Shown: piece by piece, positions 16,475-19,580 of the stretch | How positions within the stretch are numbered: the stretch's first letter is position 1 | Layout: every line of letters starts with the position of its first letter | Assembly: GCA_903911085.1 (NCBI GenBank) | Contig: CAIWCC010000162.1 | Span: 1-36,799 of the forward strand | Source: an uncultured Bacteroidales bacterium | Lineage (GTDB): Bacteria; Bacteroidota; Bacteroidia; Bacteroidales; Paludibacteraceae | Reading direction: 5' to 3' | Length of the DNA stretch: 36,799 nt | Notes under the pieces: generated by a model | Seen by the model: only the letters and a program-made list of their open reading frames with translations | What the model was told of the DNA's origin: nothing | Database searches by the model: none | Position numbers and translations under genes: made by a program

Positions 16475-17494
16475 ATGAAAAATCGTATTAATCAATTGTT
16501 GGAGGAAGTAAACCAACTTGTTGCCGCCAACCAAGATGAATTGGAAGCGCTGCGAATTAAATATCTGAGTAAAAAAGGAGAAGTATCTTCACTTTTTAAC
16601 GATTTCAGAAATGTCGCAAATGAAGAGAAACGTGAAGTTGGACAATTATTGAATGAACTAAAAAATGTTGCTCAAGACAAAATAAATGATTTAAAAAATT
16701 CCTTTGCTGACACAAACGCTACTGATCAAAAAACTGATTTGACCCGCACCGCCGACCCTATAAAATTAGGTACGCGTCATCCTTTATCATTGGTAAAACA
16801 TGAAATAATAGAGATATTTTCTCGCATTGGTTTTACAATTGCCGAAGGTCCAGAAATTGAGGACGACTGGCATGTGTTTGGTGCACTGAACTTTGCACCC
16901 GAACATCCTGCCCGCGACATGCAGGACACATTTTTTATTGAACAAAATCCAGACATTTTGCTTCGCACGCATACTTCGTCGGTGCAGTCGCACATTATGA
17001 CGCAACAAAAGCCACCCATCCGAAAATTATTTCCAGGACGTGTGTACCGCAACGAGGCAATTTCTTATCGTGCCCACTGTTTTTTCCATCAAGTAGAAGG
17101 TCTATATATCGACAAAGATGTTTCGTTTGCCGATTTGAAACAAGCATTAATGTATTTTGCCAAAGAGATGTTTGGGGCTGATACCGAAATTCGTTTGCGA
17201 CCATCCTATTTCCCATTCACCGAACCTAGCGCCGAAATGGATATTTCATGTAATTTGTGTGGTGGCAAAGGTTGCCCTTTTTGCAAACATACTGGCTGGG
17301 TAGAAATTCTTGGCTGTGGAATGGTAGATCCTAATGTGCTCGAAAACTGCGGAATAGACTCTAAAATTTATTCAGGTTATGCATTTGGAATGGGCGTAGA
17401 ACGCATCACCAACCTAAAATACCAAGTAAAAGATTTGCGAATGTTCTCCGAAAACGATGTGAGATTCTTGGAACAATTTGAATCGGCACATTGA
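16475..17494 (+). CDS. pheS: Phenylalanine-tRNA ligase alpha subunit
   Basis: 339-aa catalytic subunit of the (alpha-beta)2 PheRS that charges tRNA-Phe in the cytoplasm. The N-terminal coiled coil (about 1-85) binds tRNA. The class II core has motif 2 around FPGRVYRNE (near 188), HQVEGLYID, FTEPSAEMDI, and the Cys cluster CNLCGGKGCPFC near 258-269 before GWVEILGCGMVDPNVL. Motif 3 is GYAFGMGVERI. Length is normal. pheT is not adjacent, and a strong terminator follows immediately, so pheS is monocistronic here. Expression may be modulated by the leader hairpin and Phe-rich small ORF upstream (inference). Confidence 0.97.
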   Translation: MKNRINQLLEEVNQLVAANQDELEALRIKYLSKKGEVSSLFNDFRNVANEEKREVGQLLNELKNVAQDKINDLKNSFADTNATDQKTDLTRTADPIKLGTRHPLSLVKHEIIEIFSRIGFTIAEGPEIEDDWHVFGALNFAPEHPARDMQDTFFIEQNPDILLRTHTSSVQSHIMTQQKPPIRKLFPGRVYRNEAISYRAHCFFHQVEGLYIDKDVSFADLKQALMYFAKEMFGADTEIRLRPSYFPFTEPSAEMDISCNLCGGKGCPFCKHTGWVEILGCGMVDPNVLENCGIDSKIYSGYAFGMGVERITNLKYQVKDLRMFSENDVRFLEQFESAH

Positions 17495-17529
17495 TATTTT
17501 CAATAAGTTATATTTCAAAAAGATAAACG

Positions 17530-17562
17530 AAAAACACAGTACATATTGTATTGTGTTTTTTT
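17530..17562 (+). terminator. Terminator of pheS
   Basis: AAAACACAGTAC (17531-17542) pairs with GTATTGTGTTTT (17548-17559), with one G-T pair and a 5-nt loop, followed by more T. It lies 37 bp after the stop codon. Confidence 0.88.
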
Positions 17563-17634
17563 GTTTTAAAAACGAAATGCTAACATATAAAAAAAATAAT
17601 TTTATCATAGTCTGTAAATGTAAAAAAATAATCT

Positions 17635-17642
17635 TATATTTG
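17635..17642 (+). promoter_or_regulatory. -7 box for a non-coding RNA
   Basis: TATATTTG matches TAnnTTTG. It sits after the pheS terminator and directly before a run of stable hairpins, not before an ORF. No clear TTTG -33 element is visible. Confidence 0.6.
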
Positions 17643-17647
17643 CAGTT

Positions 17648-17858
17648 CACAAAATGAACTCAGCAATTGTAACGACAATTGTTTTACATATTATCAAAAG
17701 CGTTAGCTTTTATTCCCGTTTCTGAAACTTCGACACTTTCAAACGTAAAGGAATAAGTTAGTAAACGCCTGCGCCAAACGGCGTGGGCTTTAACTTATCA
17801 TTTACGTCGGCAGTCGAAGGCCTCAGAAGCGTGATACGTTATTGTTCACGCTTTTTTT
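17648..17858 (+). ncRNA. Structured non-coding RNA of unknown family with own promoter and terminator
   Basis: No ORF covers this stretch, which is GC-richer than its flanks. Predicted stems in order: GTTCA/TGAAC (17645-17659); CAATTGT-aacg-ACAATTG (17664-17681); AAAAGC-gtta-GCTTTT (17696-17711). Next comes a long rod built from TTCTGA/TCAGAA (17720, 17823), CTTCGAC/GTCGAAG (17728, 17813), ACGTAAA/TTTACGT (17743, 17801), ATAAGTTA/TAACTTAT (17753, 17791) and a GCC/GCGCC apical helix capped by AAAC (17767-17788). A terminator, AGCGTGA/TCACGCT plus T7 (17828-17858), closes it. A -7 box precedes it. The length of about 210 nt and rod shape recall 6S-type or other housekeeping RNAs, but I cannot match it to a family. 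It could also be an attenuator leader of the gene at 17967, although I see no antiterminator. Confidence 0.7.
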
Positions 17859-17966
17859 GTGCATAAAAGTGAAGAAAATATGGATACCCCTGAACATCCA
17901 AAACAGTGAAGGAAGCGGAAGCCGAAAAGCTTATGAGTAGGTAAAAAAACAAATAACTATTGTCTT
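17859..17966 (+). other. Leader between the RNA terminator and the T9SS gene
   Basis: This 108-bp stretch has two small potential hairpins: GGAT...ATCC at about 17882-17899 and AAGC...GCTT at about 17913-17932. A purine-rich segment (GAAGGAAGCGGAAGCCG) lies between. There is no TAnnTTTG box, so the promoter of the next gene is not identified; read-through from the upstream RNA is possible. Confidence 0.35.
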
Positions 17967-19580
17967 ATGAAAAAGTTTTATTCTCTAATTTTTTGTTTTT
18001 CCATAACGTTGCTTTGTAATGCACAAACAATCGTTAATTCTGTAGCGTCTTTATCGGGTTTCACTTACTCACTTGGTGCTGGACCATCATCTCAACAATC
18101 ATTTACCGTAAGCGGCAGTTCGCTTTCTGCTGGAATCTCAATCACAGCATCGTCCGATTACGAAATTTCAGCAGTGTCAGGCACTTATTTTACCGGCACT
18201 AATTCATTGACTATTAGCAAGTCTGGAACTGTAGTTAATTTAACTACAATTTATGTGAGGCTTAAAACCGGTTTAGTAATCAATAATTATAACGGGAGTA
18301 TCACTTTATCATCTACAGGAGCTGTATCCAAAAATATAACTTTAAGTGGAAAAGTGAATAACTCAACAATTGGTATCTCTACTTCAACCACTTCATTAGC
18401 AGAGTTTAATTATGTAATTGGGTCTGGTCCTTCTGGCGAAAAATCTTTTACTGTTAGTGGCACAAGTCTTTCTGGTAATATAAGTATTGTTGCACCAACT
18501 AACTTTGAAATTTCTACTGGAACTGGAGCCTTGTTTGTTGGAAAGAGCTCAATAAGTTTAATACAAAATGGTGGAAATGTACCAACAACAACTATTTATG
18601 TTCGTTTAAAGTCTGGATTGTCGGTTAATTCTTATTTAGGTAACATAAACTTATCGACAATTAGCGGTTTAGGCACAACAATATCTTTAAGTGGATCTGT
18701 TTCTGAATCACCAATTATAACAGTATCAACAAAAGATATATCAGGATTAAATTATATGCTAGGAATTGTTCCAACTACTGTAAGGTCATTCACTGTAAAT
18801 GGTTCAACACTTTCGTCTGATATAACAATAACGCCACCAACAAATTTTCAAATTTCTCTAACATCAAATGCTTCTTATGTATCTACTCCAATTATTCTTA
18901 CTAACATTGGTGGCAATGTTTCTTCACGAACAATTTATGTGCGTTTAATATCTGGGTTGCCTTTGAATACATATTCAGAATCAATTAGTTTGACTTCAAA
19001 TGGAGCAATTGCTCAAAGTATTTTATGTAGTGGAGAAGTAACTTCTGGGGGCTCATTGAATGTTTCAACTTCTTCAATGTTTTTAACACAGAATGATCAG
19101 TCATTTAATGTAAGTGGATATGGACTCACCTCTACTGTAATAGTTTTAGCACCTACGAACATCGTAATATCAACCGAATCATCATATAATTTTAATGGGT
19201 CAAATCAAATTTTACTTTCACCTTCAAGTTCAAAATTAACAGAAACTCCTATTTATATACGTTTAAAGGAGGGGTCAGCCAATGGAAATGGAAATATAAC
19301 AATTCTTTCAACAGATGTAGCAACAAAAAGTATTTCGATAAGTACTTCTATTTATTATACAGGTACTTCCAATTTGAAAAAAGAAGTTGCCATTAGTACA
19401 TTGAAAAATCAAATTAGAATAAATGGATTAAGTTCGGGTGAAGAGATAAAGATTTATAATACAAAGGGTATTTTAGTCAAATCATTTATTTCTTCTAGTG
19501 GTGAAAACATAATTAGAATAAATGAGAATGGTTTGTATATTTTAAAATACGGAAATAATACAAAAAAAGTTATTCTTTAA
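17967..19580 (+). CDS. Secreted beta-sandwich repeat protein with T9SS C-terminal sorting domain
   Basis: 537 aa with a signal peptide (MKKFYSLIFCFSITLLCNAQ). Three clear repeats of about 112 residues begin near 28, 143 and 257, each with SFTVSG/SFTVNG, an FEIS-type strand and TIYVRLK-x-GL. A degenerate fourth begins near 370 (SFNVSGYGL). These are Ig-like beta domains seen in Bacteroidetes surface proteins. The last 75 residues (IKIYNTKGILVKSF ... GLYILKYGNNTKKVIL) look like a type A T9SS sorting domain, which directs export through the type IX system and anchoring at the cell surface. No catalytic motif is visible, so adhesion or a structural role is the best guess. Ser/Thr/Asn-rich composition fits a surface protein. 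Confidence 0.85.
   Translation: MKKFYSLIFCFSITLLCNAQTIVNSVASLSGFTYSLGAGPSSQQSFTVSGSSLSAGISITASSDYEISAVSGTYFTGTNSLTISKSGTVVNLTTIYVRLKTGLVINNYNGSITLSSTGAVSKNITLSGKVNNSTIGISTSTTSLAEFNYVIGSGPSGEKSFTVSGTSLSGNISIVAPTNFEISTGTGALFVGKSSISLIQNGGNVPTTTIYVRLKSGLSVNSYLGNINLSTISGLGTTISLSGSVSESPIITVSTKDISGLNYMLGIVPTTVRSFTVNGSTLSSDITITPPTNFQISLTSNASYVSTPIILTNIGGNVSSRTIYVRLISGLPLNTYSESISLTSNGAIAQSILCSGEVTSGGSLNVSTSSMFLTQNDQSFNVSGYGLTSTVIVLAPTNIVISTESSYNFNGSNQILLSPSSSKLTETPIYIRLKEGSANGNGNITILSTDVATKSISISTSIYYTGTSNLKKEVAISTLKNQIRINGLSSGEEIKIYNTKGILVKSFISSSGENIIRINENGLYILKYGNNTKKVIL

Follow-up and report, generated by a model that had tools for sequence, protein, structure and literature searches.

What kind of element occupies positions 17648-17858, between pheS and the next gene in the genome of an uncultured Bacteroidales bacterium? 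The preliminary description of this stretch, which lies in a window of 36,799 nt (the whole piece of DNA analysed here), proposed a novel structured RNA of no assigned family, with a -7 box in front, small hairpins, a long rod helix and a perfect terminator with T7, and read it either as an independent small RNA or as the leader of the following gene. The structured RNA itself is confirmed. On the plus strand, 17648-17858 folds to -68.9 kcal/mol versus -41.4 ± 4.4 in shuffled sequences (z -6.2), and none of 200 shuffles was as good, which bears out the claim of long-range pairings beyond chance; the minus strand folds less well (z -4.65). The minimum-energy fold contains the long rod and the hairpin at 17662-17683. 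A second small hairpin, at 17697-17710, is absent from that fold, where its 5' arm is taken up by the 3' end, and is backed instead by homologues. The rod proved to be only part of the fold, to which the comparison of homologues adds a pseudoknot and in which two covarying arms are possibly paired loops. The features are listed below; percentages give paired cells with each copy's own arms versus arms exchanged between copies, among 174 distinct copies, counting an opposite-strand match (L093 +) and L079, which is probably degenerate.

17635 to 17642, plus strand: AT-rich promoter-like -7 box, TATATTTG, recognised by sequence
17662 to 17683, plus strand: hairpin hp1, from the fold and an alignment of 19 copies
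17693 to 17858, plus strand: conserved RNA core, a full-length match to a covariance model built partly from this copy
17697 to 17710, plus strand: hairpin H1, AAAGC-GTTA-GCTTT, 92.3% versus 83.1%; ATAGC/GCTAT in a branch
17710 to 17756, plus strand: pseudoknot helix, TTATTCC (17710-17716) with GGAATAA (17750-17756), from covariation and an alignment-free test
17717 to 17831, plus strand: helix R1, 17717-17724 with 17824-17831, 96.4% versus 55.7% (n = 174)
17729 to 17818, plus strand: helix R2, 17729-17734 with 17813-17818, 98.8% versus 56.0%
17743 to 17807, plus strand: helix R3, 17743-17749 with 17801-17807, 90.3% versus 44.0%
17753 to 17798, plus strand: conserved hairpin S9, outer helix 17753-17760/17791-17798, 85.4% versus 67.0%; inner helix 17767-17775/17780-17788 with G-U pairs, 98.6% versus 97.3%

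Compensatory changes, which the preliminary description had named as the check on its proposal, are plentiful among homologues. The covariance model was built from 18 of 19 copies of the genus, and in these 18 copies 93.7% of cells pair versus 84.8% after shuffling and 31-48% when the arms are slid. Double changes occupy 75 cells versus 19; further pair types, 42 versus 40.7, show no excess over shuffles. In a separate scan of named genomes, 76 copies (one of which repeats a copy used for the model) have 92.6% of cells paired versus 67.5% shuffled and 767 double changes versus 237; these copies were picked by an S9 pattern, so the invariance of S9 among them is a product of selection. Alignments fitted to the model lean toward it, a bias kept in bounds by arm swapping and by the tests that need no alignment.

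Individual helices differ in how they vary. The stem of hp1 changes in sequence among the genus copies and, by eye, retains its pairing. The pseudoknot joins the strand before R1 to the strand before S9 with an alignment-free z of 13.6, and two of its five pairs covary among the 18 genus copies. On the covariance-model alignment of distant copies it scores weakly (0.761 versus 0.699 arm-swapped), we guess because its arms are not aligned there. Each arm of R2 fits the loop of a small hairpin (GAAA..TTTC and GGC..GCC), whose stems are 100% and 94.4% paired with little variation in 18 copies; R2 may thus be a loop-loop contact, although the identical bases would also suit a plain rod. The 3' arm of S9 may pair as GCGTGGG with CCCACGC, both near invariant (mean 8.92 versus a swap maximum of 8.86), with a few co-changes (L036, L115, L107, L113 and L184), a break in L079, and a fit in L197 only by hand. 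In L197 (G647) the whole S9 stem is swapped to GCCTCCACC/GGTGGAGGC, a strong lone case of compensation. One candidate was rejected as a general helix: AAAGCG (17697-17702) with CGCTTT at the 3' end is near invariant in the genus, scores 0.880 versus 0.857 arm-swapped over the 174 copies, and in one branch H1 is altered as a hairpin instead.

The claim of a structured RNA of no known family, now backed by homologues and covariation, also stands against the family search that had been asked for. At gathering scores Rfam 15 gave nothing in the whole window, and over the core the gathering and E-value modes gave only weak chance matches. In E-value mode, 17400-18100 returned four matches, three of them weak (E 0.33-0.74) and one placed between the leader and the gene at 17967:

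17912 to 17943, plus strand: DUF805b-like motif (RF02914), 34.8 bits, E 4.5e-8, below the gathering score of 35.6

ARAGORN found 0 tRNA or tmRNA genes in the window, and among the open-access papers listed, no title or opening lines of an abstract described the element.

How widely is this RNA distributed? A DNA search of 60 genomes, the own one and relatives, gave matches in 33 of them, with 13 places in the own genome; some of these matches are to the DUF805b-like stretch alone. The covariance model recognises 16 places in the own genome and hits 28 of 48 genomes of the genus, 98 of 295 genomes and 70 of 184 genera of the order, and 40 of 395 genomes of a phylum sample, the own genome being included in each of the three genome counts. 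The pattern scan of named genomes gave at least 80 loci, and in 75 of the 80 listed the model recovers the element, at 76 places in all. Confirmed copies among the matches listed come, for instance, from Prevotellaceae, Paludibacteraceae, Capnocytophaga canis, Flagellimonas, Sunxiuqinia, Mucilaginibacter and Sphingobacterium, with Flagellimonas meridianipacifica, Sunxiuqinia indica, Paenimyroides aquimaris, Mucilaginibacter sp. SG564 and Sphingobacterium lumbrici among the carriers known by species or strain; among the loci listed, the model fails to confirm the pattern in Streptomyces, Cupriavidus, a Proteobacteria MAG, a Phycisphaeraceae MAG and one Paludibacteraceae MAG. In the virus collection, the element is present on three of the 11 contigs that show the pattern.

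The genes next to these copies indicate what the element may do. In the window it is flanked as follows:

16475 to 17494: pheS (Pfam tRNA-synt_2d), upstream of the element
17967 to 19580, plus strand: downstream gene of 537 aa, with an N-terminus that resembles a signal peptide by eye

The 537-aa protein has no Pfam match at 0.001, and 'T9SS' is the label of an earlier reader. Two sets of copies, with four in common, were examined for their neighbours, the next ORF being the first of at least 60 aa kept by the picker and not an annotated gene; for L139 the picker chose a gene at +2084, the true one lying at +53 on the same strand. In two batches of 20 extracted stretches, five and three, respectively, stop early at contig ends. 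In the first set of 77 copies, a next ORF was present in 75, co-oriented in 75 of 75 at a median gap of 67 nt, whereas upstream ORFs were 46 co-oriented and 25 opposed. In the second set of 108 copies, 100 had a next ORF, co-oriented in 95 and opposed in five (L200, L220, L271, L287 and L288), eight had none in reach, and upstream ORFs were 53 co-oriented and 47 opposed. In 100 of 162 copies the motif TAnnTTTG, which we take to be the Bacteroidetes -7 box, lies between -120 and -20 relative to the core; the reversed pattern does so in 11, and nine have the motif in -300..-200.

The products are many. Among 75 in the first set the commonest were Por_Secre_tail (8), Fib_succ_major (6), N6_N4_Mtase (4) and ResIII (4), and among 95 in the second TonB Plug (10), LRR_8 (5) and Por_Secre_tail (4). 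By a crude signal-peptide rule, applied to wide loci only, 53 of 72 are exported versus 202 of 867 other ORFs at the same loci (odds ratio 9.2). As to a coherent set of controlled genes, exported proteins are enriched, yet one branch precedes restriction-modification genes. In g190, one genus of another family, the element lies 225-375 nt before similar genes, several encoding TonB-dependent receptors by Pfam (L182, L184, L185, L187, L189, L190, L193, L196 and L199), which looks like a conserved locus.

Fixed orientation, short distance to the next gene and compensatory structure are the properties of a cis-regulatory leader, and the element has all three. Between the two roles first offered for it, gene order and the pairings that pass the T run in homologues strongly favour the leader. 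A free small RNA of about 210 nt that acts in trans and ends at T7 would account for the promoter box and terminator present in the genus; it is improbable, given that the next ORF is co-oriented in nearly all copies and belongs to many different genes, that covarying contacts reach beyond the T run, and that helices differing among paralogues would leave few fixed bases for targets.

The position behind pheS raises a further alternative. At 30 pheS loci, the own one included, the upstream neighbour is present in 30 of 30 and the downstream side is variable, three of the loci ending shortly after pheS. The window leader therefore sits at a variable site, and the site after pheS in the genus is, on this comparison of sequences, insertion-prone. 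Right after pheS, 17529-17561 forms a 15-pair hairpin followed by a T run, likely the pheS terminator. Elsewhere, L033:9273-10085, L031:4099-4176 and L035:7186-8065 are partial copies with promoter, hp1 and AAAGCGTTAGC and without the core; those at L033 and L031 precede ORF6N and nucleotidyltransferase-HepT genes, as though two kinds of gene shared a single 5' module. Such partial copies, the multicopy occurrence next to accessory genes and at variable sites such as the one following pheS, and a constant orientation to the next gene that a cassette would also give, would suit a DNA element, that is, a mobile gene-cassette end or recombination site structured merely as a palindrome. The base changes speak for an RNA. 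Over R1, R2, R3 and both S9 helices, G-T cells number 546 versus 99 A-C cells, or 259 versus 95 without the near-invariant inner S9 helix, which holds 287 of the 546, and this excess marks the plus strand as the RNA; an integron attC-like site would not be expected to prefer G-T over A-C. Together with the promoter-box association and a window copy that has no match in plasmid or phage collections, this makes a DNA element highly improbable, and the integron-like gene-cassette reading was dropped as the main one.

If the element is a leader, its 3' end may show how it acts, and two features are relevant there:

17827 to 17858, plus strand: terminator, AAGCGTGA (17827-17834) with TCACGCTT (17846-17853), T run 17852-17858
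17844 to 17895, plus strand: candidate contact over the T run, GTTCA (17844-17848) with TGAAC (17891-17895), tested at class level only

The hairpin before T7 has -13.1 kcal/mol and z -4.85, in line with the terminator first described; a simple terminator scan missed it, its loop probably being longer than the limit of 8 set in that scan. Its perfection is mostly a trait of the window genus. With 171 of 174 copies scorable, and with the genus taken here and in the R1 comparison as the genus-search loci plus L173 and L253, added by similarity, a local terminator hairpin occurs in 32 of 40 genus copies versus 29 of 131 others, which does not make it a class-wide feature; five or more T among the following eight bases are found in 38 of 40 and 122 of 131.

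The terminator takes five bases (17827-17831) from the 3' strand of R1. In forced folds of the window, R1 reaches -61.5 kcal/mol versus -59.5 for the terminator, or -58.1 with a slightly different terminator set, a gap of 2-3.4 kcal/mol in energies that, here and in the other copies, leave out the pseudoknot. Each of the 31 genus copies passing the filter has an overlap of 2 nt or more between R1 and the terminator. The median gap is 4.9 kcal/mol in favour of R1, and 16 of the 31 lie within 5 kcal/mol; in the other 15 one form leads by more than 5 kcal/mol, as the terminator does in L073 by 12.1. Two of the 31 favour the terminator. The genus thus has the mutually exclusive layout of an attenuator.

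Among homologues, other pairings reach across the T run. In 50 of 168 copies an exact complement of the five bases preceding ACGC occurs no more than about 75 nt farther downstream, versus 13.7 arm-swapped (maximum 21), and a related downstream-complement test gives z 6.9. In addition, the strand just 5' of H1 pairs with the strand just 3' of the T run in a closing helix of up to 11 bp in a subset of copies (z 5.8). In many homologues, then, a closed domain seems to surround the T run, which would be read through, and since the local hairpin is mostly missing outside the genus, termination is not the general mechanism.

These pairings are the core of a rival in which the leader acts on translation or mRNA stability and not on termination: with the T run inside a helix-closed domain, a loop nearer the start codon would pair with the strand before the T run, and an upstream tiny ORF (AUG-one codon-stop) may couple the leader to ribosomes. 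Of 168 copies, 68 indeed have a micro-ORF in the 60 nt upstream, versus 30 and 27 in two farther 60-nt stretches and 31.7 in shuffles (maximum 47). It mostly reads ATG-one codon-TAA, the middle codon being variable, often follows TTTGCCT, and is seen outside the genus, e.g. in L258, L107 and L113. The closing helix is strong (score at least 16) in only 26 of 169 copies, the window copy not being among the best, and the window, like most of its genus, has the local terminator hairpin. As an account of the window this rival is unlikely, if less so than the two above; outside the genus, where the micro-ORF is enriched, the domain seems to work in another way, perhaps through translation.

The branch before restriction-modification genes is set apart by its H1. 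ATAGC..GCTAT replaces the usual arms in 17 of 181 copies, and 13 of the 17 continue with GTTCGC, a boundary set after the genes had been noticed. Eleven of these 13 stand before genes for restriction enzymes or related defence enzymes, of unrelated types: type III methylase (L036, L086, L137 and L139), type III nuclease (L133), type II methylase (L080 and L082), type I (L085 and L135) or PLD-SNF2 (L077 and L087). Ten of the 11 begin 40-66 nt after the core, and that of L087 begins at 217 nt. Of the two exceptions, L084 precedes a gene for a TPR protein, and L076, truncated at a contig end, has no match. The four ATAGC copies without GTTCGC (L088, L131, L134 and L207) have no defence match. Six defence families match one protein each among the 95 of the second set, and L063, outside the branch, also precedes such a gene. 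No P value is attached to the association because the sets were sampled differently.

Taken as a whole, the element probably acts as a genetic switch. What the computations show is its fold and covariation, the association with a promoter box, the orientation of the genes and the bases common to R1 and the terminator. We favour, with a probability of about 0.55, a class of cis-acting leader RNAs of Bacteroidota that in the window genus most likely works by transcription attenuation. Transcribed from its own promoter, such a leader would fold into a domain of about 170 nt with H1, the pseudoknot, R1-R2-R3 (R2 perhaps as paired hairpin loops) and S9, and would control a gene starting mostly 45-120 nt downstream. 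With the domain folded, R1 would hold the 5' arm of the terminator, RNA polymerase would continue into the surface-protein gene, and the gene would be on; with the domain not stabilised, the terminator would form and the gene would be off. The direction of this putative switch would be opposite if a factor unfolds the domain, and its signal, with any ligand, is likewise presumptive. Tentatively, and with less confidence than in attenuation, one may imagine a phylum-wide riboswitch-like class through which one common signal reaches many acquired surface-protein genes, with a branch for restriction-modification genes timed on entry into a new host.

To our knowledge, few RNA switches are known in Bacteroidota. 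A large pseudoknotted leader RNA in about one third of the sampled genomes of the order offers an entry point to gene control in this phylum. The genes concerned encode surface proteins, TonB-dependent receptors, lipoproteins and restriction systems, the kind that mediates contact with hosts, food and phages, and the covariance model together with a testable switch makes the signal searchable.

Structured leaders as a kind are known; the architecture of this one matched nothing searched. DUF805 RNA (RF03081) and DUF805b RNA (RF02914), joined in clan CL00115 and of Cis-reg type in Rfam, lie 3' of the element in the window and in L061 (both sub-threshold), in L096 and in L091/L120. Unlike the element, they are 35-68 nt long and stand downstream of it, whereas the 170-nt core matches no Rfam model. 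6S-Flavo (RF01685), Flavo-1 (RF01705) and Bacteroidales-1 (RF01693), which PMC2864571 lists as Bacteroidetes RNAs, are like the element structured RNAs of the same phylum, and the element has no match to them; the further literature used is PMC8040213 and PMC7366714. The closest likeness in layout is to terminator-platform riboswitches. Here the terminator is not conserved across the class, and a riboswitch role is a candidate one; what the element has in common with them is a conserved complex pseudoknotted domain followed, in the genus, by a terminator that shares bases with a domain helix, and many copies in one genome, ahead of genes that share a trend.
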